In this document: piece by piece, positions 22,750-44,412 of the stretch
Position numbering within the stretch: the stretch's first letter is position 1
How the letters are laid out: every line of letters begins with the position of its first letter
NCBI RefSeq assembly: GCF_015711015.1
Contig: NZ_CP064653.1
Coordinates: forward strand, 2,046,001 to 2,110,000
Reading direction: 5' to 3'
Source: Methylomonas sp. LL1
GTDB lineage: Bacteria; Pseudomonadota; Gammaproteobacteria; Methylococcales; Methylomonadaceae
Length of the DNA stretch: 64,000 nt
Program-made: the position numbers and the translations under genes
The notes under the pieces: model-generated
Told to the model about the DNA's origin: nothing
Databases searched by the model: none
Seen by the model: only the letters and a program-made list of their open reading frames with translations

Positions 22750-24003
22750 TTATGCCTGGCGTGGGAACTGGATTACTTGCGCACCGGTTTTCAATGCGTC
22801 CAAGTAATCGGCCCAGGCTTGCATCATCCGCCGGCGTTCGTCCAGGTATTGTGCGCGGTTATAGGCTGCGCGTACCTGATCCTTGGGCATGTGGCACAGT
22901 TGACGCTCGATCGCATCCGGCGACCAGCCTTGTTCGTTGAGTAAGGTCGATGCGGTGGTTCTGAAACCGTGGGCGCTCATCTCGTCGCTTTGGTATCCAA
23001 GGGTTTTTAGCGCGGTGCGGATCGTACCGTCTGACATGGGCCTGCCGTCGCCGCGGCTTGAAGGGAATACGTATCGTCCGGTACCGGTTAGCGGCTTGAT
23101 GGCTTCCAAAATCTCCACCGCTTGGCGCGATAACGGGACAATGTGTTGCGTTTCGGTTTTGGTGACAAAGTAGCGCCATTCCTTGGCTATCAAGTCGATG
23201 TCCTTCCATTCCATTTGGCGAATTTCGCCCGGACGCTGAAACAAATATGGCGAGAGTCTTAATGCGCATTGCACAACAAACGTGCCTTGATAGCAGGAGA
23301 TGTCCCGCAGTAATTGGCCAACTTCCTTGGGCTCAGTGACGGCCGCGTTGTGTTTTACTTTTTGTGCCGGTATTTGAGCGCCTACCGCTTGAGCCGGATC
23401 GTAGTCTGTATAGCCGTGGGCGATGGCATAGGAAAAAGCGCCGCTAATGTCTGAGCGCACACGGTGCGAGGTTTCCAGTTGGTTTTTAATGATTAGCGGC
23501 CGCACGATGGCGAAAACATCCGGCGACTTCACTTCGCCGATAAGCTTTTGACCAATTGCCGGAAATACATACAGCTCGAATCGGCGAAGTTTCTTTTGTT
23601 GGGTAATGTAGCGGACGGTGTGAGCAGTTGACGCCAACCAATCTCGTGTAACGTATTCGAAGCTGTTGATCAGCGGAAGCCCGGCATCAAGGCGTATTTG
23701 AGCCTCGACGGCCTGTTGGTTGTCGGCCTTTTCCTGTTTACGCGTTGCGCTGGGATCGATGCCGTTGGCAACTTGCTCGCGGGCTGCTTCGGCTTTGCGC
23801 CTGGCGCTTTCGAGTGATGTCTCCGGATAAGAGCCAAAACCAAGCCGATTTTGCTTGCCCCCAAACCGGTAAATAAATCGCCAAAGCTTTGATCCGTTGG
23901 TTTTGACGAGCAACGCCAGACATTCGCCGTCATTGATGGTGTAGTCTTTGTCTTTAGGCTTTGCAGCCCTGTAGACCGTGTCTTTATTGAGATTTTTAGC
24001 CAT
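22750..24003 (-). CDS. P4-type tyrosine integrase
   Basis: A 417-residue recombinase that inserts the element into tRNA-Leu. The ATG at 24003 is preferred (protein begins MAKNLNKDTVYRAAKPKDKD, a typical DUF4102 arm-binding start); the longer frame adds 24 unsupported residues. Visible catalytic residues: Arg in LFQRPGEIRQMEW, H-x-x-R in SAHGFRTTASTLLN, His in RQLCHMPKD, and Tyr in AAYNRAQYLDERRRMM. The gene lies next to the tRNA 3' end and is transcribed away from it, the normal P4-integrase geometry. Octamer sites surround its start, suggesting self-control. Confidence 0.93.
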   Translation of the reverse strand: MAKNLNKDTVYRAAKPKDKDYTINDGECLALLVKTNGSKLWRFIYRFGGKQNRLGFGSYPETSLESARRKAEAAREQVANGIDPSATRKQEKADNQQAVEAQIRLDAGLPLINSFEYVTRDWLASTAHTVRYITQQKKLRRFELYVFPAIGQKLIGEVKSPDVFAIVRPLIIKNQLETSHRVRSDISGAFSYAIAHGYTDYDPAQAVGAQIPAQKVKHNAAVTEPKEVGQLLRDISCYQGTFVVQCALRLSPYLFQRPGEIRQMEWKDIDLIAKEWRYFVTKTETQHIVPLSRQAVEILEAIKPLTGTGRYVFPSSRGDGRPMSDGTIRTALKTLGYQSDEMSAHGFRTTASTLLNEQGWSPDAIERQLCHMPKDQVRAAYNRAQYLDERRRMMQAWADYLDALKTGAQVIQFPRQA

Positions 24004-24017
24004 TGAGTGACACCAAA

Positions 24018-24095
24018 AGTGATACGCAGTGATACGGTTAATCTTAAATTTACCGCGTATCACTAAACGTGTCACTGTTTTGGGTGTATGTCACT
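24018..24095. promoter_or_regulatory. Cluster of GTATCACT-type sites beside attR (integrase arm sites)
   Basis: AGTGATAC occurs at 24018 and 24028, GTATCACT at 24057, and looser forms GTGTCACT at 24069 and ATGTCACT at 24088. Copies also flank the other attachment site at 11103, 11120, 11295 and 11307. Short repeats on both sides of an att core are the pattern of integrase arm-binding sites; here they also overlap the integrase promoter. Confidence 0.6.
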
Positions 24096-24122
24096 GCATT
24101 TTGTTGAACTTCTTTGAACAAT

Positions 24123-24157
24123 AAAAAACCCGCTAAGCCTTGAGGCTTGCGGGTTTT
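24123..24157 (-). terminator. Terminator of tRNA-Leu
   Basis: On the minus strand AACCCGC-AAGCCT pairs with AGGCTT-AGCGGGTT, followed by TTTTATT. It lies 33 bases after the tRNA 3' end and also faces the start of the integrase gene. Confidence 0.85.
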
Positions 24158-24189
24158 AATACTTCTTTGCACGTCTCCGTACACATGTT

Positions 24190-24274
24190 TGGTACCGAGG
24201 GTCGGAATCGAACCGACACTCCCGAAGGAACCGGATTTTGAATCCGGCGCGTCTACCAGTTTCACCACCCCGGC
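24190..24274 (-). tRNA. tRNA-Leu (anticodon CAA)
   Basis: An 85-nt tRNA with encoded CCA. Acceptor strands GCCGGGG and CCTCGGT pair, with discriminator A. The D arm contains GGTAGAC, the anticodon loop is TTCAAAA between CCGGA and TCCGG, the long variable arm (CCTTCGGG) marks a class II tRNA, and the T arm reads GTCGG-TTCGATT-CCGAC. It decodes UUG. The element is integrated in its 3' end but leaves the gene intact. Confidence 0.96.
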
Positions 24275-30779: not shown

Positions 30780-30886
30780 GCATATCCTCCACCGGCAAAT
30801 CCATGTTAGAGTTGCCTCGCTAGCCCCATAGCCTATTGGTAGACATGATTTTTTAGGCAAAAAAACATAACGACCACTTGACACTC

Positions 30887-31984
30887 ATGCCGACGCTAAC
30901 CCAAAAAACGATATTGATTGTTGACGACTCCCCGGAAAACCTAACCGTTCTCGGCGAATTGCTGAATCCGCTCTACCGGGTATTGGTAGCCACTTCCGGC
31001 CAAAAAGCCCTGCGTATCGCCGACGCCACGGTTCCTGATCTAGTGTTGCTGGATGTAATGATGCCGGACATGGACGGTTACCAGGTCTTCGAGCAATTGC
31101 ACGCCAATCCGCTGACCAACCATATCCCAGTGATATTCGTCACGGCGATGGACAGCACCGAGGCCGAGTTGCGCGGCCTGGACGTGGGAGCGGTGGATTA
31201 CATCACCAAACCGATCGTGCCGCCCATCGTGCTGGCTCGCATCCGCACCCAACTGGAACTGAAACAAGCGCGCGACCGTCTGGCCGACCAGAATGCCTGG
31301 CTGGAAGCCGAAATCGCCAAACGCATGATGGAAAACACCCTAATCCAGGAAGTCAGCATCCGGGCGCTGGCGCATCTGGCCGAAACCCGCGACCCGGAAA
31401 CCGGCAATCACATCCTGCGCACCCAAGGCTATGTCCAGCAATTGGCCTTGATACTGCAAAACCACCCACGCTTCTCAACCACGCTGACGGACCATTACAT
31501 CCAGTTGTTGACGCGCTCGGCACCGCTGCACGACATCGGCAAGGTCGGCATTCCCGATTATATTCTGCAAAAACCGGGGCCACTTAATCCGGAAGAATGG
31601 GAAATCATGAAAACCCATGCCTATATCGGCGCCGTGGCCATCGAAGAAGCCGAAAAGGATGTGGAAAGACCGGTGGAATTTTTGATTTTGGCCAAGGAAA
31701 TCGCCCATTGGCATCACGAAAAATGGGATGGGACAGGCTATCCGGATAGCCTGTCCGGCGAAGCCATTCCGGTTTCGGCCCGCATCATGGCGCTGGCGGA
31801 TGTATTCGACGCCTTGATTTCGCGCCGCGTTTACAAGGAGGCCATGCCGTCCGAGGCAGTGCGGGACATCATTGCCGCCGGCCGAAACCAACATTTCGAC
31901 CCCGACATGGTCGACGCCTTCCTGGCCCATTACCCGGTTTTTTGCGATATTGCCGATCGCCATCGCGATCCGATAGTGGAATAA
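30887..31984 (+). CDS. Response regulator with HD-GYP phosphodiesterase domain
   Basis: A 365-residue protein. Residues 1-125 are a receiver domain with the acidic pair in IVDDSPEN, the phosphorylated Asp in LVLLDVMMPDMDGY and Lys in YITKPIVPP. The HD-GYP domain follows, with the metal ligands in PLHDIGKVGIPDYIL, HAYIGA and HWHHEKWDGTGYP (the GYP motif). Such enzymes break down cyclic-di-GMP. The ATG at 30887 is used; a TTG three codons earlier is possible. Confidence 0.92.
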   Translation: MPTLTQKTILIVDDSPENLTVLGELLNPLYRVLVATSGQKALRIADATVPDLVLLDVMMPDMDGYQVFEQLHANPLTNHIPVIFVTAMDSTEAELRGLDVGAVDYITKPIVPPIVLARIRTQLELKQARDRLADQNAWLEAEIAKRMMENTLIQEVSIRALAHLAETRDPETGNHILRTQGYVQQLALILQNHPRFSTTLTDHYIQLLTRSAPLHDIGKVGIPDYILQKPGPLNPEEWEIMKTHAYIGAVAIEEAEKDVERPVEFLILAKEIAHWHHEKWDGTGYPDSLSGEAIPVSARIMALADVFDALISRRVYKEAMPSEAVRDIIAAGRNQHFDPDMVDAFLAHYPVFCDIADRHRDPIVE

Positions 31985-32139: not shown

Positions 32140-34770
32140 ATGCCAGCCAACCCGATCAACGACCAAGCGGAACCGTCGGACCGTGGCCGAATCCTGCTCG
32201 TGGTCCTGGTGTATGTGTTATTCGCGGCCGGCTGGATATTATTATCGGACAAATGCATACGCATCCTGTTCAGCGACCCGGACCAAATCATCCTGGCCAG
32301 CACACTGAAAGGCTGGCTGTTCGTCGCTATCACCGCATTGTTGCTGTATGACCTGATGCGGCGCTGGTTCGGCGGCCATTCCGAAGCCAAATTCAGCCCA
32401 ACCACCCATTCGCGCCAACTGAAACTGCTGTTCGCGTTTTTGGCAACCGGCATACTCGCACTGGCCGCCGCTGGCATTACCCATACCTTTGCGAATAACA
32501 AGTCCAGGGAAATCGCCCGATTGCAAGCCATCGCCGAGCTGAAGTCGCGCCAGATAGCCGATTGGCTGAGTGAGCGGCATGACGATGCCGAATTTATCCG
32601 GGCCAACGAGACCCTGGCCGAATATTACCTGAATTGGCAAGCATCGGGTGATACCGATAGCGGCCAACGCCTACAAGCACACTTGGAAAAATATCGGAAA
32701 ATCCAAGGATTCCATGCCGTGACCCTACTCGATCCAAACGGCGATAAATTGTGGGGCAGCGCCGAGTCGCCGCAAACGGTCGCCCCCGAGTTGCAAGCCG
32801 CCGCGCGGCTGGCCGGCACCCGACAGCAGGTTCTGCATGTCGGACTATACCGAGGAGTGTCCGGGCGCCCGCGGCTGGATTTCATCGCGCCACTGGCGTC
32901 GGTGTCCGGCTCCGCGCCACTGGTGGTTTTGCACGTTGATCCGCATGACTGGTTATTCCCTACCCTGCAAAACTGGCCTGCGCCCAGCGTCAGCGGTGAA
33001 ACCTTAATATTCCGGCGCGATGGCGACCAGATACTCTATCTCAACGAATTACGCCATCGACAAAACACAACAGCGACATTGCGGCTACCCATCTTGGACA
33101 GAAAACTACTGGCCGCCCAAGCAGTACAGCACGGCGAAATCCGGCCGGGTGACGCCCTGGAAGGCCTGGATTATCGCGGCGAACCGGTGATCGGCGTGAC
33201 GCAAGCCGTCCCCGGCAGCGACTGGTTTCTGACCGCCAAACTTGACCGGTCCGAACTCTACGCCGAAGCCATCGACGATGCCGACTGGATCGGTTTTAGC
33301 GGCTTACTGATTCTGCTGATCACCGGCGCCGGTTTCCAGCTGTTGAAGCAGAACCAAAGGCTGGCTTTGGCCCAAGCCCTGCAGCAATCACAGGCGGAAC
33401 GCATACGGGAGATGAATTTGCTGACGGCTATCGTCGACAGCTCGAACGACAGTATTTTCGCCAAGGATTTAGCCGGACGTTTCGTGCTGTTCAACCGAGC
33501 GGCCGCCGATATGGTCGGCAAGCCGGCCGAGGCGGTATTGGGCCAGAACGAATACGCTATCTTCCCGGCCGAACAGGCCGATCAGCTGCTCGCCAACGAA
33601 CGTATCGCGCTTGCGGATAACCGTATTCTTACCAATGAAGAAACCCTCGGCACACCCCACGGTGAAAAAACCTTCCTGACCAGCAAGGGGCCGTTGCACG
33701 ACGCCGACGGCAACATCATCGGCCTGTTCGGCATTTGCCGCGACATCAGCGAACGCATACGCGCGGAACAAGCTCTGCGCGAAAGCGAAAACCGCTTCCG
33801 GGCCTTGGTGGAACAATCGCTGGCCGGCATCTATATCATTCAGGATAATAACTTACGTTATGTCAATCCGACCTTCGCCGGCATTTTCGGCTATGCCGCG
33901 CCGGAGGATTTGATCGACCGGGTGCCGGTCGCCGAACTGGTCAGCCCGGAATACCGCGAACAGACGCTGGAAAACATACGCAGGCTGATCGACGGCGAAC
34001 TGTCCGAGATCATGCATTTCATCGTTGTGGCCTTGCGCCGAGATGGCCGGCGTATTGACATCGAGGCGCACGGCTCGACTATCGACTATCAAGGCCGGCC
34101 GGCGGTGATCGGCCAAGTCCTCGACATCAGCGAACGTAAACAGGCGGAATTGAGCTTGCGTCAAAACCAGGCATTCAAACACGCCATTCTCGATTCGGTC
34201 AGCGCCTCGATTGCCGTGCTGGATAAACAAGGCGTGATTATCGCTGTCAACCAACCCTGGAAACGCTTTGCCGAGGAAAACGGGCTTTACGCCGGCCAAC
34301 CGGCCGCTCAAACCGGAATAGGCATGAATTACCTGGAAATCTGCCGGCATAGCATCGGCTTCTCATCGGAGGGCGCGCAGGCGGCCAGGGATGGTATCTT
34401 AGCGGTACTGGAAGCTCGGCTGCCCCAGTTCAGTCTCGAGTATCCCTGCCATTCGCCGACCCGACAACGCTGGTTCGTGATGCACGCTACCCCATTGAAC
34501 ATCGCCGAGGGCGGTGTTGTGATCAGCCATTCCGACATCACCGCCCGCAAAACCGCCGAAGAAACATTGAAGTATCAGGCCGAGGAATTGTCGCGCCACA
34601 ATGCCGAACTGGAACGTTTCAATCGTCTGATGACGGGACGCGAGCTGGACATGATAGCCTTGAAACAACGGATCAACGCCCTATCCCGCCAACTGGGCCG
34701 GGAAGCACCTTACCCGCTGGCTTTTCTGGATGACCAGGCCCAACCCTCTAGTCGAGAAGACGGCGCATGA
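32140..34770 (+). CDS. Membrane PAS sensor protein without output domain
   Basis: An 876-residue protein. Two membrane helices at ~20-36 and ~58-75 begin it, then a third helix at ~92-115 opens a large extracytoplasmic sensor (~120-400, with HAVTLLDPNGDKLWGSAESP) closed by a helix at ~415. Three PAS domains follow: ~435-560, ~565-690 and ~695-815, each ending in a D-I-S/T-E/A-R-K type linker. The C-terminal end is a coiled coil (NAELERFNRLMTGRELDMIA). No kinase, GGDEF or receptor domain is present, so it must signal through a partner, most simply the kinase encoded next. Confidence 0.88.
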   Translation: MPANPINDQAEPSDRGRILLVVLVYVLFAAGWILLSDKCIRILFSDPDQIILASTLKGWLFVAITALLLYDLMRRWFGGHSEAKFSPTTHSRQLKLLFAFLATGILALAAAGITHTFANNKSREIARLQAIAELKSRQIADWLSERHDDAEFIRANETLAEYYLNWQASGDTDSGQRLQAHLEKYRKIQGFHAVTLLDPNGDKLWGSAESPQTVAPELQAAARLAGTRQQVLHVGLYRGVSGRPRLDFIAPLASVSGSAPLVVLHVDPHDWLFPTLQNWPAPSVSGETLIFRRDGDQILYLNELRHRQNTTATLRLPILDRKLLAAQAVQHGEIRPGDALEGLDYRGEPVIGVTQAVPGSDWFLTAKLDRSELYAEAIDDADWIGFSGLLILLITGAGFQLLKQNQRLALAQALQQSQAERIREMNLLTAIVDSSNDSIFAKDLAGRFVLFNRAAADMVGKPAEAVLGQNEYAIFPAEQADQLLANERIALADNRILTNEETLGTPHGEKTFLTSKGPLHDADGNIIGLFGICRDISERIRAEQALRESENRFRALVEQSLAGIYIIQDNNLRYVNPTFAGIFGYAAPEDLIDRVPVAELVSPEYREQTLENIRRLIDGELSEIMHFIVVALRRDGRRIDIEAHGSTIDYQGRPAVIGQVLDISERKQAELSLRQNQAFKHAILDSVSASIAVLDKQGVIIAVNQPWKRFAEENGLYAGQPAAQTGIGMNYLEICRHSIGFSSEGAQAARDGILAVLEARLPQFSLEYPCHSPTRQRWFVMHATPLNIAEGGVVISHSDITARKTAEETLKYQAEELSRHNAELERFNRLMTGRELDMIALKQRINALSRQLGREAPYPLAFLDDQAQPSSREDGA

Positions 34771-34849
34771 TTGGCTTCCTACCACAGGCCCCGTGTCCAG
34801 TGTTCCTCACTAATCAGGCCGCCGCCACGGCTATTTTTTGGAGCAGCCA

Positions 34850-36469
34850 ATGATGATCGACCAACTCAACCTGTTGTTTGCGGTGAAGGATTACATCCCT
34901 CACGGCTATTGCCTGAGCTGGTCGCCGAACCTGGTCATGATTTACGCGATCAGTGACCTGTTGATTTTTATAGCGTATTTTTCGATGCCGCTGGCATTGG
35001 CCTATTTCGCGCGGCGGCGCGCGGACTTCCCCTACCAATGGCTGCTGTGGCTGTTTGCCGCGTTTATCATGGCTTGCGGCACGACCCATCTGATGGGGGC
35101 TATTGTGCTGTGGACGCCGCTATATGGCCTGGACGCCCTGCTGAGAGCGGCCACCGCGCTGCTATCGGTCATCACCGCCGCCGTGCTGTGGCCCTTGCTG
35201 CCGCATGCATTGAAACTGCCCAGCCCCGCTCAATTGCGGCTAATCAACCAAGATCTGCAAAGCGAAATCGCCGAACGCCGCCGGATCGAGGAAGAATTGA
35301 GAATAGCCAAGGCCGCCGCCGAGGAAGGTCTGCTGCGGCAGCGGATGCTAATGGCCGCCATTGTCGAGTCTTCCCAAGATGCCATCATCGGCAAGACCCT
35401 GGACAATATCGGTACCAGCTGGAATCGGGCTGCTGAACGGATTTTCGGTTACTCGGCGGATGAGATGATAGGCCGCTCCCTGCTCTGCCTGATAGCGCCG
35501 GAACAGCACGACGACGAACAACAGCGGCTGGACAGCATAAGGCGCGGTGAATCGATCAATCAATTGGAAACCCAACTGATCCGCAAAAACGGTAACCGGA
35601 TAGACGTGTCCGTCACTCTGTCGCCGATTCTGGACCTCGCCGGCCAGGTGGTCGGTGCATCGCAAATCGTCAGGGACATCACCGAGCAAAAACGGGTGGC
35701 GGCCCAAATCCGGGAACTGAATGCCAATCTCGAACAAAAGGTCAACCTACGCACGCTCGAACTCAGCGCGGCAAATCGCGAACTGGACAGCTTCGCCTAT
35801 GCGGTGTCTCACGATTTGCGCGCGCCGCTGCGAGCCATGAGCGGATTCAGCCGAGCCCTGATCGAGGATTACGGCGACAGCTTACAGGGCGAATCCAGGG
35901 TTTATCTGCAACAAATCGACCTGGCCAGCCGCAAGATGGGCGAATTGATTGACGGCCTGTTGACGCTTTCACGCGGCACGCGCGGCGAGTTGCGGCATGA
36001 TGCATTGGACATTTCCTTAATGTCGCAACACCTGCTGGCCGAACTGGCCAAAAACGAGCCCGAACGCCAGGTATCGATCGAGGTGGAGAGCGGATTACAG
36101 GCTTATGGCGATGCTCGCATGCTGGAAGTGGTGATGGCCAATCTACTGAGCAATGCCTGGAAATACACTGCGGGGACCGATCCGGCCATGATACGGGTCC
36201 ATGCCGAGCAACGCGATGGAGTGCGCCACTTTTGCGTGGCCGACAACGGCGCCGGTTTCGATATGGCGCACGCCAACCGCCTGTTTCAGCCCTTTCAGCG
36301 TCTGCACCGGCAGGATGAATTCCCCGGCATCGGTATCGGCCTGGCCACCGTGCAACGCATCATAAACCGGCACGGCGGCGGCATATCGGCGCGGGGCGAA
36401 GCGGGCAAGGGCGCGGTATTCTGTTTTACCTTGCCCGAACAGCGCCCGGAATCGGCGCGAGACCAATAG
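34850..36469 (+). CDS. Histidine kinase with ethylene-receptor-like N-terminal domain
   Basis: A 539-residue kinase. The ATG at 34850 has TTGGAG 6 bases upstream. Residues 27-125 are three membrane helices matching the plant ETR1 ethylene-binding domain. The residues known in ETR1 to bind copper and ethylene are at the same mutual spacing here: Asp36, Tyr43, Ile73, Cys76 and His80 (ETR1 Asp25, Tyr32, Ile62, Cys65, His69), within ISDLLIFIAYFSMPL and FIMACGTTHL. A PAS domain (~165-290), a HisKA helix with SHDLRAPLR (phytochrome type), and a complete ATPase domain (NLLSNAWKYTA, DNGAGFDM, GIGIGLATV) follow. The response-regulator gene 9 bases downstream is the likely partner. Binding of ethylene or copper is inferred. 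Confidence 0.9.
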   Translation: MMIDQLNLLFAVKDYIPHGYCLSWSPNLVMIYAISDLLIFIAYFSMPLALAYFARRRADFPYQWLLWLFAAFIMACGTTHLMGAIVLWTPLYGLDALLRAATALLSVITAAVLWPLLPHALKLPSPAQLRLINQDLQSEIAERRRIEEELRIAKAAAEEGLLRQRMLMAAIVESSQDAIIGKTLDNIGTSWNRAAERIFGYSADEMIGRSLLCLIAPEQHDDEQQRLDSIRRGESINQLETQLIRKNGNRIDVSVTLSPILDLAGQVVGASQIVRDITEQKRVAAQIRELNANLEQKVNLRTLELSAANRELDSFAYAVSHDLRAPLRAMSGFSRALIEDYGDSLQGESRVYLQQIDLASRKMGELIDGLLTLSRGTRGELRHDALDISLMSQHLLAELAKNEPERQVSIEVESGLQAYGDARMLEVVMANLLSNAWKYTAGTDPAMIRVHAEQRDGVRHFCVADNGAGFDMAHANRLFQPFQRLHRQDEFPGIGIGLATVQRIINRHGGGISARGEAGKGAVFCFTLPEQRPESARDQ

Positions 36470-36478
36470 GATTTAACA

Positions 36479-36919
36479 ATGAATAGCAAAACCCTGCTGT
36501 TGGTGGAAGACAATCCCCAGGATGAAATGCTGACCTTGCGTGCCTTGCGCAAAGCCGGCCTGGCCAACAAAATCGAGGTGGCGCGAGACGGCCAACAGGC
36601 GCTGGATTATCTATTCCGGCTCGGCGAATTTACCGACCGGGACGGTCCCGATCTACCCACCCTGGTGTTACTCGACATCGGCCTGCCTCGGCTGTCCGGC
36701 CTGGAAGTGCTGGAACGCCTGCGCGCCGATAGCCGCACCGCATTACTGCCGGTGGTGATACTCACGTCTTCCGATGAGGAACGCGACCGCCTGCAATGCT
36801 ATGAAATTGGCGCCAACAGCTTCGTGCGCAAACCGGTGGACTTCGCCGAATTCGCCGAAACCGTCACGCGCCTGGGCGTGTACTGGCTGCTGACGAACGA
36901 ACCCGCGCCGGCGCGCTGA
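36479..36919 (+). CDS. Single-domain response regulator, Rcp1 type
   Basis: A 146-residue receiver with no DNA-binding output. Visible are the acidic pair in LLLVEDNPQDEMLT, the phosphorylation site in TLVLLDIGLPRLSG, Thr/Ser in ILTSSDEERD and Lys in SFVRKPVDF. The EDNPxD start and the insert before the phospho-site fit the family that pairs with phytochrome-like kinases. It lies between two kinase genes and may pass phosphate from the ethylene-receptor-like kinase to the hybrid kinase. Confidence 0.92.
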   Translation: MNSKTLLLVEDNPQDEMLTLRALRKAGLANKIEVARDGQQALDYLFRLGEFTDRDGPDLPTLVLLDIGLPRLSGLEVLERLRADSRTALLPVVILTSSDEERDRLQCYEIGANSFVRKPVDFAEFAETVTRLGVYWLLTNEPAPAR

Positions 36920-36926
36920 AACCACG

Positions 36927-39900
36927 ATGAACGCCCCACTCAAGCTGCTGATCATTGAAGATGTCCCGGCCGACTTTCTGTTGCTGGAGCGGCATTTTCG
37001 CCACTGCGGCCAGGACGCCGAATGCCGGCGGGTGGAAAACGATATGGAGCTGAAAGCCGCGCTTCAAAACGGCCCATGGGATGCGGTGCTGTCCGACTAT
37101 AACGTACCCGGCATGGATTTTCCCGCCAGCTTGCAACAAATCCGGCAGTTCAACCCCGATTTGCCGGTAATTTTGGTCTCGGGCAGCGTCGGCGAGGAAA
37201 CTGCGGTCGAACTATTGCACCTAGGGATTAGCGATTTTGTGCTGAAGGACAATCTAACCCGCCTATTACCCGCCATCGCGCGCGGCATGGACGAGGCCAA
37301 CGAACGGCGCGCGCGCAAGGAGGCCGAAGCCGCCCTGCGCAAGAGCCAAACAGCCGCCCTCGAAGAGCAACGCCAGGCCCGCATTGCGGCCCTCAACCTG
37401 ATGGAAGATGCGGTCGCGGCCAGGGCCAGCGCCGAAGCCGCGCATGTCGAACTGCAAGAGTCGGAAGCCAAATACCGATTGCTGGCCGAAAACGCCTCCG
37501 AGTGCATCTTCTGGATAGATCCCGACGGTAACCTCAAGTACCTGTCGCCGGCCTGCGCCCGGCTTTACCTGCGGAACATTGAAGATTTTCTAGCCGATCC
37601 CTGTTTAATGGCCGACGTCATCCATCCGGACGACAGAGCCACCTATCTTCACCACCTGATTTGTCTTGATCCCAATGAAGGAGAACTGGAACTCCGCATC
37701 ATGCGCGAAGACGGTCGCCACGTCTGGATCAGCCATCATTGCAAACCCATCTTCGACACTAGCGGCGAATATCTGGGACGACGCGGCGTAAACCGGGATA
37801 TTACTCAGCGCAAGCAAATCGAGCAGGAGCTACGCGATAGCGAAGAACGCTTCCGGGTAGCCACCGAAAACATCCGCGATGCCTTTATCATGGTTGATGG
37901 CATAGAGGGCAAAATCGTACTGTGGAACCCGGCAGCCACAACTATGTTTGGCTACAGCAGCCGAGAGGCATTGGGACAGCCGATACACGCACTCCTTGCC
38001 CCGCCGCGTTTCCATGCGGCGGCAGCGGCCGGTATGGCACATTTCGCTAACACGGGTGAAGGCCCGGTAATTGCCCGCACCCTGGAACTGCCGGCCCTGC
38101 ACAAAAACGGCACAGAATTTTCGATCGAACTCTCGCTGTCGGCGACCTTGCTTGGTGGCCAATGGCATGCCGCTGGCGTGATCCGCGACATCACAGAACG
38201 CAAAAAAACCGAGGATCAACTACGTAAACTGGCCCAAGTGGTCGAGCAAAGCCCGGAAAGCATCGTCATTACCGATCAAAACGGTGTGATCGAATACGTC
38301 AACGAAGTCTTTCTGCGCAATTCGGGTTACAGCCGCGAGGAAATCATCGGCCAAAATCCACGCATTCTCAAATCCGGCAAGACCTCGCCGGAAACGCATC
38401 GGGCATTTTGGGACGCCATGCTGCGCGGCGAAATCTGGAAGGGCGAATTCGTCAACAGGCGCAAGGACGGCAGCGAATACGTGGAATTCGCCATCGTGAC
38501 TCCGATCCGCCAGGCCGATGGCACCATCAGCCATTACGCGGCGGTCAAGGAAAACATCACCGAAAAAAAACGCATCGGCGAGGAACTGGACAGACACCGT
38601 CATCACCTGGAGGAACTGGTAGCGAGCCGCACCGCCGAACTGGAGGCGGCCCGGGCGCAGGCGGACGCCGCCAATCAGGCCAAAAGCTCCTTTCTGGCCA
38701 ATATGAGCCATGAAATTCGGACCCCGATGAATGCGATCATCGGCCTGACCTATCTGTTGCGGCAAAGCCCGTTGAACAAAGACCAGCGCGAACGTCTGGA
38801 AAAAATCGACATGGCCGCCGAACATTTGTTGGCCATCATCAATGACATTCTGGATTTATCGAAAATAGACGCCGGTTGCCTGGAACTGGAACAAACCGAC
38901 TTTGCCCTGGAAACCATACTGGACCATATACGCTCGCTGATTGCCGACAAGGCTCAAGCCAAGGGTCTGAGCATCGAAGTGGATAGCGGCGGTGTTCCGC
39001 TCTGGCTGCGCGGCGATCCGACCCGGCTGCGTCAGGCCATGCTGAATTATGTCAGCAACGCGCTCAAATTCACCAAGGAAGGCAGCATTTGGCTGCGCGC
39101 CAAATTACTGGCCGAAACCGACGCGGGTTTATTGATACGGTTTGAAGTTCAGGACACCGGCATCGGCATCGCCCCGGAAAGTTTGCCCATGCTGTTTACC
39201 GCCTTTGCCCAGGCCGATGTTTCCATCACTCGCCAATACGGCGGCACCGGCTTGGGACTAGCCATCACCCGCAATCTGGCAAATATGATGGGCGGCGACG
39301 CGGGCGTGGAAAGTACGCCAAGCCATGGCAGCACGTTCTGGTTTACCGCCAAGTTACAGCGCGGCCATGGCGTCATACCCAGCGCATCCTGGGGGAAATC
39401 GGCCAACGCCGAAGCCATGCTGCGCCGGCATTTTACCGGCGCTCGGTTACTGTTGGCGGAAGACAACCCCATCAACCGGGAAGTGGCGCTGGAATTGTTG
39501 CACGGCGCTGGTCTGTCGGTGGATACCGCCGAAAACGGCCGGATTGCGTTGGAAAAGGTGCTGTCAAATAGTTACGATCTGGTCCTGATGGACGTACAAA
39601 TGCCGGAAATGGACGGTTTGACCGCTACCCGGGCACTACGCTCCCGGCCGGATTTCGCGCCCTTGCCGATTTTGGCCATGACCGCCAATGCCTTCGACGA
39701 CGATAGGCATGCTTGCCTGGATGCCGGCATGAACGACTTTGTCGCCAAACCGGTCAATCCCGAACAACTCTACGAGACGGTTTTGCGTTGGCTATCCGCC
39801 GACGACCGCCAGCGCTTAGCGGTGGATAGGTTTGACTCCGCCGAGCTATTATCGCCTCCTCCGGTTCCGGCCCAAGCCTTCAACCTACCCGGCGTGGATG

Positions 39901-40478
39901 TCACGGCCGGCCTAGGGGCCGTCAAGGGCAATAGCGCTAAATATCGCCACCTGCTGCGCATATTCGCCGAATCCCACGCCGAAGACATGAAACAGGTACA
40001 GGCTTTTCTGATCGACGGCAATATCGCGGATGCACATCGCCTGGCGCACAATCTAAAAGGCGTTTCCGCTACATTGGGCGCTCGCACGGTTTCCGATCTG
40101 GCCGCGCGCTTGGATAACGCCTTTCGCCGGGAGGCCAGCGTTGCCGAGCGCTCGGAACTGGCTAGCTTATGCGATCACGAGCTGACGCAACTGGTACAAG
40201 CCATTTTGGCCTTGCCCGTCGAAGCCGAACCCATGGAGCAGACCGATATAGGCGACATCGATCCGGAACGCTTGCGGCGGACCCTGGCCGAGCTGGAAAA
40301 ACTGCTGGCCGAAAACAACGCCCTCGCCAGTAATTTAGCCAGGGACTCGGCCAATCTGCTGCGAACCAGACTGGGCAAGCGTTATAGCGAATTTTCTCGC
40401 CAAATCGATATATTCGATTATGAAACCGCGCTGGAGACCCTACGCGGCGCCAGCGACCGGACGGATTCGGAAGGATAG
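36927..40478 (+). CDS. Hybrid histidine kinase: REC-PASx3-HisKA-ATPase-REC-Hpt
   Basis: An 1183-residue phosphorelay protein with no membrane helix. Receiver 1 is at 1-125 ([16 protein letters not shown], with Asp in VLSDYNVPG). Three PAS domains span ~180-555. The kinase core has [20 protein letters not shown], then [18 protein letters not shown] and GGTGLGLAI. Receiver 2 (~830-950) has [14 protein letters not shown] and [13 protein letters not shown]. The Hpt domain (~990-1080) has the transfer histidine in [16 protein letters not shown]. The start overlaps no gene but is 7 bases after the receiver gene, so the three are one operon. Output is probably through a separate regulator or the HD-GYP protein. 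Confidence 0.93.
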
Positions 40479-40545: not shown

Positions 40546-43500
40546 TCAGATCTCCCAAAACGCATTATCTTCAAAATAAAAAGCTTCGCTTGCGGGCGCT
40601 TCAATAACCAGATCGGTTAGGAAGATCGGTTTTTGAATACCGTAGCCTTGAACGTAATCGACGCCAATCTGCCGGAGAATCTCTCGAATTTCATTGTTCT
40701 CGACATATTCGGCTATGGTTTTCAAACCCAAGGAATGGGCAATTTCGTTCATGGATTTTACGATGGCAATGTCGGCTTTGTTATTGGCAATATCTTTAAC
40801 AAAAGCGCCGTCAATTTTTAGATAATCAACGCTCAGGTTTTTCAAATAAGAATAGGACGAATAACCCGAGCCGAAATCATCCAGCGAGAATTTACAGCCA
40901 AACTGCTTGATGGCCTGGATAAAACGTTTGGTAAAAGCCAAGCTTTCGGCCGCCACCGTTTCGGTGATTTCAAAGGTAATTTTGTCGAGCGGTATAGTCG
41001 AGGAGGCTAGAAAATCCCTCAAAAACTCCAAAAATTCTTCACTATTAATCGATTGTCCGGACAGGTTGATCGAGAATCCGTCCATATTAATAAAATCCTG
41101 CCTATTTTGCTCTATCCAAATGAATACATTTCTGATGATCCATTCATCGATTTCCGGCATCCGTTTGCAGCGCTCAACCGCCGGAATGAAATGATCGGGA
41201 GGAATGATATTATCGGCGTCGTCTCTTACCCCGAGCAAAATTTCATAATGTTGATGAGTCTGTCTGGTTTGATCGACCGGCGCAATCCTCTGACAACGAA
41301 TAAATAACCGATTTTGGGATAACACATTATCGATATGCCCTATCCATTCATACAATTTATTTTGCCGTTTCAAACTCTCGTCATCGGAGTTAAACATCAA
41401 CACATGATTCGGTCCGGAATGCTCGGCCGACAGGCTGGCGGTGTCGGCTTGCTGAAGTAATTGATGAATATCGTAACAATTATCTCCAAATGCGACCAAG
41501 CCCAAGCTGACACCAATCGGAAAACTCTTTTCCAGCCATTCAAAATGTGAGTCATTAATCAGCTTTATCAATTGTTTGCAGAATTGATAACCTTCATCGG
41601 CGCTACAGTGCTTGAATAACACGGCAAAAGACTGATCTCCAATCCGAGCGGCGATATTATCGGTTTTTAATTGCTCGACGATGATCCGCGATATACGTTT
41701 TATCAGTTGCGCGCCGCCGACTAGCCCGCAAATACTGGTTATCACTCGAAAATCCAATACTTCCATGTGACATAGCATGTGCTGCGAATTACTCAGTTTA
41801 GGCAGTTCGTTTCTCAGTTGCTTGACGAATTCATCCTTGGTAAAGAGATCGGTTTCGTGGTCGTGAGTCGCATTGTGAACCAACTTTTCATGCATATTCT
41901 GCAACATGATATTGGTGGCGCGATCCACCACCGGAATATCCAGATTATCCATTTTATTGGCCGCGCCACTGCGGAAACGCTCGGCCAGTTCGATATTATT
42001 AAGCTCCATCTTATTCAAGCCATCACGATTAACGAAAACGTAAACCCGTAGAAAAGTCCCCTTCCACACCAGTTTCATCGGCTCGAAGCCTTGGGGGCCG
42101 GACAGCATCATCAGCCAGTCGCCGACCTGTAATTGTTCGACCTGAGCCCAACTACCATCGGATAACTCGGTCAGCGTTCGTTCATTCGAATTGAGCGGCG
42201 GAATTTTGACCGTTCTAACCGGACTTCTGACTTTCGGCGTACCCACGCCCAACAACAAGGCCGTCAATTCCTCGATAATTGTTTTACGTTCCGTGACACT
42301 GGTACAAACCGAAACCAAATTCTCCCCGAAAAACTCGATGGTCTTTTGGATGCTGCCGGACTGGATTTTAACCACCGAATCCTGCTCGTACAGCCAAAAA
42401 AACAAGTCATCGAGTGCCTTCCAATATTTTCGATATTCGTCCGGTTTTGTGTCTTTATTCAGTTCAGCCATCACCAACAGATGTTGCCAACCGGCCTTCA
42501 ACAAAGCCGGAATGACGGTGGGAACGGCTTTGCCGGCAATACGCTTATCGACTTCATTCTGTACCGAGCAGCGCGCCATTTCCAGTTTTTGCCGGCCATC
42601 ATAAACTTCGACAATATGTTTGATATTCGAGTCTATCGATTTGCTAACCTGCTGGGTCAGCCCATCCAATTCTTGCCCGACCTCGGTAAATATATTGGGG
42701 TTTGCATTAGATTCCCGCGCTATGCGCGAAATAATTTTATCCAGGGTATTTTTGATATTGATATTCTTGATGACCCGATTGCTTTTTACCATGGGATCCA
42801 AAAAAGCCAGCTGATTCAATATCTTTCTAGCCGGATGGCTATCCGACTCTAAAAAATCGCTACCCTGAAACGGCAAGGACAGTAGCGACAAGTGAATACT
42901 GTCCAAATAGGATTTAATTTCGACCGAGAATGCCAAATCATTGAATAGGGTTTCAAAAAACTTACCATATATTTCCAGATGCCGAATATCATCACTAGAG
43001 AGTAGGTTTGCTTTATTGCCTAGACTTTCCAAATTATCCTGTAATTGCTTTTGCAGCGCGGTCGAATCCAGATGGATAGGCCCGCCGTCACCCATCGCAT
43101 GTTGTATATTTGAAATAGCCGCGACAATCTGATCGGATGAAATCGCCGGATAGGATGAAGCTGACACCAGCGCCTTATCATTCGACAAACTCTTCTTGAT
43201 CAGCTCCAGGGAACTGGTATCCATTTCATTCAATATATCGAGCAATTTTCCGGCGATTTGCGTGACAGGCGGCCTGTTATTCCGCTCCGAATAATCCGGC
43301 TCATGCGCCTGTTGCTCCGGTAAATGCCGGTTACCCTGGATTCTAATATTTTGGTTTTCGGGCGGTAAATCTTGGGGTTTATACGTGTTTTTATCCGATT
43401 CCGTAGGCAATGGTTGCCGTGTTTTTTCAGCGGATTCCTGCTTGGATAAAACCGATTCGACTTGCTCATACAAGTTAATCAAGCTGTTGAACAGTGTTTT

Positions 43501-44412
43501 ACCGAAACAACGGTAAACAACTTTATAAAGGTTGGCGTCAAACTCTTGCCGCAGTATGATTTCACGAAAACAATTACATAATACCGCCGGACTAATGGGA
43601 TTATTGACCGTGAATGTCGATAGGCCGAACACCCGGCTTAACGCCCTGATCAATTGATTGATTTGATCTTCAAAATGGTTGGATAGCGCTCTGACGATCT
43701 CCGACATATTCAACCAGTCTTCAAAATCCTCCTTATCAACCAGCGACAGAGGCATGTCAACGCTGAGAATATCTTCCTTTTTATCTTCAGACTCGGAAAT
43801 ATAATCGACCTGTGAAACCACCAAACTACAAAATTCGCTGATGACGGATTCCCGGCCCTGCTTTAGGGTTGTGATGAAATCGTCGAACGCGGAACGGTTG
43901 GCAAAATATTGAGCGTGTTCGTTGGCGTTTTCCAAGTCTTCAACGATATACACATAAAAACGCATCATCAGTGAAGGCAATTGATCGACCAATATTTTTT
44001 TCAATGCATTTTTGGAATTCTGCTGTTTTATTGTATTGGGCGACGACCTACGTTTATCCCGCAGCAGGATTTTGGTGCCGTTATCCACTGCCTTGATTAA
44101 GGCATTCAGTAAAGCATCCGGCATGTGTTCAAATTCGACCCCTAGGCCGGTAGACGTGACATGGACTATTTTGGCGTCGATTTCGAAGTTTTCCGGCGCG
44201 TAACCAGTATTAATAGAGAATTGGATTCTGGCCGCTTTAACCGGCGGAATTTGGAGGTCCGCTTGTTTAAAGCCGAGGTAAAAACCACCGTCACAAAAAT
44301 CCAGAATGAAACAGGGAAACGAGACCGAATCATTAAATCGTAATGTGGCCTCGATTTCTATTGCATAGCGAATATGGCGGCGGCGTTTGCTTTTTTTGAT
44401 GTTGCTTAACAT
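40546..44412 (-). CDS. PilZ / DUF1631 / degenerate GGDEF / EAL cyclic-di-GMP protein
   Basis: A 1288-residue cytoplasmic protein. Residues 1-110 are a PilZ domain with RRRHIRYAIEIEATL (the RxxxR ligand motif) and FCDGGFYLGF. A long DUF1631 region covers ~130-830. The GGDEF domain (~860-1015) is degenerate: the signature is IGDQSFAVLF, so no cyclase activity is expected. The EAL domain (~1040-1275) has YEILLG, ITFEITET, SLDDFGSGYSS, YLKIDGAF and TIAEYVEN, so most metal and catalytic residues remain and phosphodiesterase activity is plausible. It converges on the hybrid kinase gene. Confidence 0.88.
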   Translation of the reverse strand: MLSNIKKSKRRRHIRYAIEIEATLRFNDSVSFPCFILDFCDGGFYLGFKQADLQIPPVKAARIQFSINTGYAPENFEIDAKIVHVTSTGLGVEFEHMPDALLNALIKAVDNGTKILLRDKRRSSPNTIKQQNSKNALKKILVDQLPSLMMRFYVYIVEDLENANEHAQYFANRSAFDDFITTLKQGRESVISEFCSLVVSQVDYISESEDKKEDILSVDMPLSLVDKEDFEDWLNMSEIVRALSNHFEDQINQLIRALSRVFGLSTFTVNNPISPAVLCNCFREIILRQEFDANLYKVVYRCFGKTLFNSLINLYEQVESVLSKQESAEKTRQPLPTESDKNTYKPQDLPPENQNIRIQGNRHLPEQQAHEPDYSERNNRPPVTQIAGKLLDILNEMDTSSLELIKKSLSNDKALVSASSYPAISSDQIVAAISNIQHAMGDGGPIHLDSTALQKQLQDNLESLGNKANLLSSDDIRHLEIYGKFFETLFNDLAFSVEIKSYLDSIHLSLLSLPFQGSDFLESDSHPARKILNQLAFLDPMVKSNRVIKNINIKNTLDKIISRIARESNANPNIFTEVGQELDGLTQQVSKSIDSNIKHIVEVYDGRQKLEMARCSVQNEVDKRIAGKAVPTVIPALLKAGWQHLLVMAELNKDTKPDEYRKYWKALDDLFFWLYEQDSVVKIQSGSIQKTIEFFGENLVSVCTSVTERKTIIEELTALLLGVGTPKVRSPVRTVKIPPLNSNERTLTELSDGSWAQVEQLQVGDWLMMLSGPQGFEPMKLVWKGTFLRVYVFVNRDGLNKMELNNIELAERFRSGAANKMDNLDIPVVDRATNIMLQNMHEKLVHNATHDHETDLFTKDEFVKQLRNELPKLSNSQHMLCHMEVLDFRVITSICGLVGGAQLIKRISRIIVEQLKTDNIAARIGDQSFAVLFKHCSADEGYQFCKQLIKLINDSHFEWLEKSFPIGVSLGLVAFGDNCYDIHQLLQQADTASLSAEHSGPNHVLMFNSDDESLKRQNKLYEWIGHIDNVLSQNRLFIRCQRIAPVDQTRQTHQHYEILLGVRDDADNIIPPDHFIPAVERCKRMPEIDEWIIRNVFIWIEQNRQDFINMDGFSINLSGQSINSEEFLEFLRDFLASSTIPLDKITFEITETVAAESLAFTKRFIQAIKQFGCKFSLDDFGSGYSSYSYLKNLSVDYLKIDGAFVKDIANNKADIAIVKSMNEIAHSLGLKTIAEYVENNEIREILRQIGVDYVQGYGIQKPIFLTDLVIEAPASEAFYFEDNAFWEI

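Follow-up and report, generated by a model that had tools for sequence, protein, structure and literature searches.

The genome of Methylomonas sp. LL1 encodes a histidine kinase carrying an N-terminal ethylene-binding domain (EBD) of the family found in the plant ethylene receptor ETR1. From its sequence, a structural model and its likeness to characterized receptors, we lean, with modest confidence, towards viewing this kinase as an ethylene receptor of the ETR1/AzoEtr1 kind that would act on c-di-GMP and on attachment or motility. Bacterial ethylene receptors are already known, and the kinase adds another protein with a known layout; what is new is the EBD richness of the order, the c-di-GMP outputs found there and the apparent swap of sensors at one operon. 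The window designates here the whole stretch of DNA analysed (64,000 nucleotides).

Architecture of the Kinase

The kinase gene and the features discussed below are:

34850..36469, + strand: EBD-PAS-histidine kinase gene, 539 aa
34850..35221, + strand: EBD including its N-terminal stretch, residues 1-124 (PF25487, E=1.6e-35)
34898..34921, + strand: PHGYCLSW (PHGxCxxW), residues 17-24, N-terminal to helix 1, conserved in 136 unique EBDs
34955..34957, + strand: Asp36 codon (ETR1 Asp25), D in 129/136
34985..34987, + strand: Met46 codon (ETR1 Ile35 position), I 191, M 12, L 6 of 209
35075..35077, + strand: Cys76 codon (ETR1 Cys65, copper ligand), C in 133/136
35087..35089, + strand: His80 codon (ETR1 His69, copper ligand), H in 135/136
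35144..35146, + strand: Arg99 codon (ETR1 Lys91 position), K 201, R 2 of 209
35351..35680, + strand: PAS domain, residues 168-277 (PF00989, E=6.9e-18)
35786..36442, + strand: HisKA and HATPase_c, residues 313-531 (PF00512, PF02518), with SHDLR, NLLSNAWK, DNGAGF and GIGIGL motifs

The putative start codon is the ATG at 34850, with GGAG six bases 5′ of it; a TTG at 34838 is also in frame. The match to PF25487 (ETR1_N) spans residues 28-123 and profile positions 2-97 of 97, and its score of 121.7 bits, far above the cut-off (27), excludes a chance match. An earlier note, made from the letters and translations, had described this open reading frame and its EBD-PAS-kinase order and had proposed a profile search for the ETR domain as a check; the coordinates, the EBD and the PAS, HisKA and HATPase_c domains were all confirmed. 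Structural modelling from 44 sequences (the window's and 43 of the best 80 loci of a scan of named-genome contigs, chosen partly on their PHGxC and CGxTH stretches) predicts three long helices, at residues 26-56, 63-85 and 92-122, with a mean pLDDT of 87.8 and a membrane location with which hydropathy agrees. Confidence is low in the stretch N-terminal to helix 1, and a single-sequence model (pLDDT 66.6) was left out of the analysis. The profile score, the three N-terminal helices and the placement of C76, H80 and D36 at the ETR1 copper ligands Cys65 and His69 and at Asp25 together assign the domain to the EBD family. Among solved structures, relatives of the EBD were found neither by sequence at E≤1 nor by fold at E≤0.001, and no EBD match occurred among 50,697 phage records.

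All four kinase motifs are intact, and the best matches of the kinase part to solved structures include bacteriophytochromes, in keeping with the phytochrome type proposed earlier. The PAS domain has a His near the heme-ligand column of FixL and DosP; a role as a second, heme-based gas sensor was rejected, as relatives lack this His and per-domain matches to DosP are weak. Promoter- and terminator-like sites near the locus are no more frequent than in shuffled sequence.

Residues of the Putative Ethylene Site

Residues D36, Y43, P47, I73, C76 and H80 of the window EBD correspond, with the spacing of ETR1, to its residues D25, Y32, P36, I62, C65 and H69. The domain departs from ETR1 at M46 (ETR1 I35) and R99 (ETR1 K91). 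In ETR1, I35, P36, I62, C65 and H69 are among the residues essential for ethylene binding (PMC6586836), and D25, C65, H69 and K91 are discussed in PMC11819568. Six of the seven residues counted as essential are thus identical in the window and the seventh, Ile35, is conservatively replaced by Met46, so that we claim membership of the fold family rather than a proven ethylene receptor. The earlier description of an intact sensor with all residues needed therefore stands for D36, Y43, I73, C76 and H80, but not for the positions of Ile35 and Lys91.

These departures bear on the strongest alternative, in which ethylene is not the relevant ligand: a drifted EBD, altered at Met46, Arg99 and Ile31-Tyr32, would sense another small alkene, a gas or nothing, and the PAS domain would be the real input. 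The changes at Ile35 and Lys91, together with the Ile31-Tyr32 that stands where Leu-His is usual N-terminal to helix 1, speak for such drift. However, the window retains D, Y, P, I, C and H, as does the full-length relative in genome G158, which has Met at 46 and Lys at 99, and the possible heme ligand of the PAS domain is not conserved. In a FastTree phylogeny of 209 unique EBDs (222 aligned, minus duplicates and fragments of <85 residues), the 12 EBDs with Met46 are exactly the members of the 12-member group holding the window (outermost node support 0.44), which argues that Met is a stable trait of this clade. Met also occupies position 46 in 3 of 25 further EBDs (L261, L266, L271). On balance, we regard drift away from ethylene as rather unlikely.

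In some divergent EBDs from other lineages (L107, L108, L279-L283), one or more residues of the essential set are missing; most have lost a copper ligand or PHGxC, and their sequences would perhaps fit other ligands.

A second conserved element, PHGxCxxW, is located outside the PF25487 match. A set of 136 unique EBDs, assembled independently of this motif, has P in 136, H18 in 133, G in 133, C21 in 134 and W24 in 134. Across 161 unique EBDs, the pairs H18/C21 and C76/H80 are both kept in 152, the first alone in 2, the second alone in 3 and neither in 4 (Fisher p=2e-5 for joint loss; the EBDs with losses diverge along their whole length and include close kin, and one count is gap-based). That PHGxCxxW might form a metal or copper site is speculation drawn from this conservation. 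Cyanobacterial receptors have a single N-terminal cysteine, for which a dimer disulfide has been suggested, whereas plant receptors have two N-terminal cysteines where the window has PHGxCxxW (PMC6682694).

Neighboring Genes and Apparent Exchange of the Sensor

The kinase gene lies within a run of five genes, separated from the HD-GYP gene through the hybrid kinase gene by 155, 79, 9 and 7 bases. The other four are:

30878..31984, + strand: HD-GYP response regulator of c-di-GMP phosphodiesterase type (PF13487, PF00072), with HDIGK and HHEKWDGTGYP intact
32140..34770, + strand: PAS-repeat protein with a sub-threshold dCache match, member of the conserved gene set
36479..36919, + strand: single-domain Rcp1-type response regulator, 146 aa (PF00072), 9 bases 3′ of the kinase gene
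36927..40478, + strand: hybrid histidine kinase, 1183 aa, with two receivers, PAS repeats, HisKA, HATPase_c and Hpt, 7 bases 3′ of the regulator gene

The 146-aa regulator consists of a single receiver and, among solved structures, most resembles phytochrome regulators (RcpB E=5e-23, RcpA 2e-20, Rcp1 2.5e-18; two better matches are named only response regulators), in agreement with the Rcp1-type neighbor that the earlier note had recognized. Domain searches found no output domain in the PAS-repeat protein.

Elsewhere in the window, a gene convergent with that of the hybrid kinase (40546-44412, - strand) encodes a 1288-aa protein with PilZ, DUF1631, GGDEF and EAL matches, its GGDEF match being weak among those in the genome. 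Upstream of the HD-GYP gene, the segment 28398-30654 (+ strand) holds OmpA, V4R and two Roadblock/LC7-type genes, and at 22750-24274 (- strand) a phage-type integrase gene adjoins a tRNA-Leu gene, an arrangement resembling the edge of an integrated element.

Gene order was compared at ten loci, five of which have a window-type EBD kinase (G158, G150, G214, G110, G008). In G158, G150 and G008, this kinase is flanked by the HD-GYP gene, the PAS protein and the hybrid kinase, which are absent around it in G214 and G110; the regulator adjoins it in G150, G214 and G110 and is absent next to it in G158 and G008; only G150 has the full set. Three other Methylomonas (G155, G084 and G133, genus g1) retain this set of genes, the HD-GYP one among them, but have a DUF4118 sensor where the window has the EBD. 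Their proteins are 77% (HD-GYP), 51-53% (PAS protein), 81-84% (regulator) and 64% (last two thirds of the hybrid kinase) identical to those of the window, and their kinases (L319, L320, L321), 51-59% identical C-terminally, have DUF4118 plus an extra kinase-receiver unit at their N-terminus. In G040 and G116, the related kinases carry different sensors. Since the same Methylomonas gene set can carry a DUF4118 sensor, the EBD seems to be an interchangeable sensor that feeds a conserved signaling unit. The operon is thereby independent of the EBD, a point that also favors the drifted-domain alternative. Among the matches listed by a whole-protein search of the 36 other genomes of the genus, a full-length relative (60% identity) appears for a single genome, G158.

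Relatives of the Domain

The best 80 loci of the named-genome scan include EBDs, with their identity to that of the window, from Candidatus Accumulibacter (76%), Rhodoferax (73%), Methylobacter KS41 (72%), a Burkholderiaceae (72%), a Rhodocyclaceae (69%) and a Magnetococcales genome (65%); EBDs are common there in cyanobacteria and other non-methanotrophs. The FastTree phylogeny joins the window EBD to four EBDs of family f1 (support 0.78) and next to a betaproteobacterial foursome (0.91), whereas the two further EBDs of the same genome branch elsewhere. This placement suggests lateral spread of the EBD type, although the alignment is short at ~120 columns. Outputs within this group of nine are mixed, comprising kinase, hybrid kinase and GGDEF-EAL. 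On plasmids, EBDs were found in 19 of 72,556 records, 7 of them from Azospirillum; the hosts also include Novosphingobium, Rhodovastum and Acaryochloris, and 3 of the 19 records are typed as conjugative.

Comparison with Known Ethylene Receptors

The closest parallel in layout is AzoEtr1, which binds ethylene and whose host shows lower c-di-GMP and biofilm under ethylene (PMC11819568). We assign it to L286:4001-5578 on a plasmid of A. brasilense Sp7, whose 525 aa equal the published length; downstream lies an overlapping receiver frame of 135 aa from an inner start. Like the window protein (539 aa), AzoEtr1 is an EBD-PAS-histidine kinase with a single-domain regulator directly downstream, and it keeps PHGxCxxW and the Asp, Tyr, Pro, Ile, Cys and His residues. 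In contrast to the window, it keeps Ile and Lys at the positions of Met and Arg, its kinase is of another type, identity reaches 30% over the full length and 44% in the EBD, and the two regulators are 26% identical over 106 positions. The layout is thus shared, and the kinases and regulators do not qualify as orthologs.

SynEtr1 (slr1212) of Synechocystis, compared by description, likewise joins an EBD to a two-component kinase, with signaling via a regulator (PMC11819568, PMC6682694); it differs in being a UV-A photoreceptor as well (PMC6682694). Arabidopsis ETR1 shares the three-helix EBD, with Asp, Pro, Ile, Cys and His positions matched by published residue numbers, but has a GAF domain where the window has PAS (PMC6586836), and the window regulator is separate and bacterial. 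A literature search, mostly by title, found no published ethylene receptor in methanotrophs or Methylomonas and no EBD-GGDEF or EBD-diguanylate protein in methanotrophs, where an earlier mention may exist; the searched text of the Methylobacter genome study PMC12810054 does not contain the word ethylene.

Distribution in the Order and Class

The host genome comprises 4.92 Mb in 2 contigs; two AMO/PmoA loci that score over cut-off mark it as that of a methanotroph, as the earlier note had supposed. Both this genome and the set of 251 used below are assigned by inference to the order Methylococcales. PF25487 exceeds its cut-off in 126 of the 251 (130 at E≤0.001), in 12 of 369 genomes drawn from the class, 3 of these 12 being in the order, and in 28 of 398 drawn from the phylum. 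As 4 of the 369 belong to the order, the frequency in the rest of the class is 9/365 (order vs rest of class, Fisher p=3e-48, which is not a true probability because genomes are related).

Within the order, at E≤0.001, EBDs occur in 114 of 207 AMO-bearing genomes vs 16 of 44 others (p=0.03), a weak association confounded with family and genome size. All 130 EBD genomes belong to families f1 and f4. Among AMO-bearing genomes of these two families, the share with an EBD rises from 4/20 below 2.5 Mb to 57/66 at ≥4.5 Mb; for AMO-bearing genomes it is 0/24 in the other families of the order and 0/7 outside the order. The enrichment is therefore one of lineage and genome size and not of AMO itself, and the idea of the EBD as a general companion of AMO/pMMO was rejected outside the order on the latter count. 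The proposed connection between ethylene and methane monooxygenase is plausible, given the toxicity of ethylene, which inhibits methane oxidation and is called a threat to all methanotrophs (PMC11507031), but the EBD distribution tracks lineage and genome size. The searched text of the same article contains no word beginning with “receptor”.

Output Domains of EBD Proteins

EBD genes of the order were read at 132 places (three of this genome and 129 among the high-scoring matches listed), 127 of them uncut. These divide into 62 ending in GGDEF and/or EAL, 62 with a kinase and 3 with neither, related species being counted separately and the domain queries missing some PAS and kinase domains, for example the PAS of AzoEtr1. 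Of 29 EBD genes outside the order, none has GGDEF or EAL and 23 have a kinase; they comprise all 9 class-draw genes over cut-off and 20 of the 31 phylum-draw places beyond this genome (two more were already among the 9, and 9 were left out of the count). Among the genera read in the order, 16 of 27 have the GGDEF/EAL type, as do 57 of the 91 genomes. The type is not unique to the order, as 4 of 75 uncut genes of the named set (best 80 loci), from cyanobacteria, Methylovorus and a “Deltaproteobacteria” MAG, are of this type. The genome itself has 64 GGDEF matches, and the GGDEF richness of such genomes might alone explain the share of EBD-GGDEF/EAL proteins. A wide range of output domains has been reviewed for bacterial EBD proteins (PMC7700396).

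Two further EBD genes were observed in the genome. L005:4258-7074 (- strand) encodes an EBD-PAS-GGDEF-EAL protein of 938 aa with GGDEF, EALLR and DDFGTG motifs, whose EBD falls in a tree group of 24 such EBDs (support 0.94); its domains make it a possible direct ethylene-to-c-di-GMP enzyme. L004:6897-9215 (+ strand) encodes a second EBD kinase, of 772 aa with several PAS matches; downstream of it lie genes for a receiver and for a PAS-GGDEF-EAL protein.

Proposed Function

If the window kinase is an ethylene receptor, Cu(I) coordinated by C76 and H80 of helix 2, close to D36 of helix 1, would bind ethylene in the membrane. Binding would change how active the PAS-linked, phytochrome-type kinase is, and this kinase would phosphorylate the adjoining Rcp1-type regulator and probably also feed the hybrid kinase and HD-GYP regulator of the conserved set; the resulting shift in c-di-GMP would change attachment or motility. 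In favor of this reading count the PF25487 score, the six conserved residues, the three-helix model, the intact kinase, regulator and HD-GYP motifs, the AzoEtr1 layout and the synteny. Against it count the rarity of Met46 (12/209) and Arg99 (2/209), the incomplete gene set in 4 of the 5 loci, the scarcity of full-length relatives in the genus among the matches listed (1/36) and the distance of the AzoEtr1 kinase and regulator.

Particulate methane monooxygenase uses copper as its cofactor, and no evidence was found for the suggestion that copper is itself a signal here. A Cu(I) sensor, reporting copper loading for copper regulation in the methanotroph with ethylene as an incidental ligand, would suit the very tight hold of ETR1 on Cu(I) (KD about 1e-15 M; PMC6586836), the two AMO/PmoA loci and the near-invariant H18 and C21 before helix 1, but is improbable given that the EBD does not track AMO (0/7 outside the order, 0/24 in its other families), that EBDs are common in cyanobacteria and other non-methanotrophs and that no copper gene was identified among the scanned neighbors.

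A bolder extension of the ethylene-receptor reading, which we hold as a tentative possibility, would see a lineage-wide ethylene-to-c-di-GMP network, in which exchangeable EBDs on GGDEF-EAL enzymes and on the HD-GYP kinase operon warn of a gas from which the cell's own methane monooxygenase makes a poison, together with PHGxCxxW as a bacterial copper-loading or capping site lost by plants.

Should EBD proteins bind ethylene, methanotrophs would sense this gas directly, and ethylene from soil and plants could tune methane consumption through behavior as well as through poisoning. Methylomonas with and without an EBD at the same operon offer a natural comparison, and the host, the EBD richness, the c-di-GMP outputs and the sensor swap together make ethylene sensing by methanotrophs directly testable.
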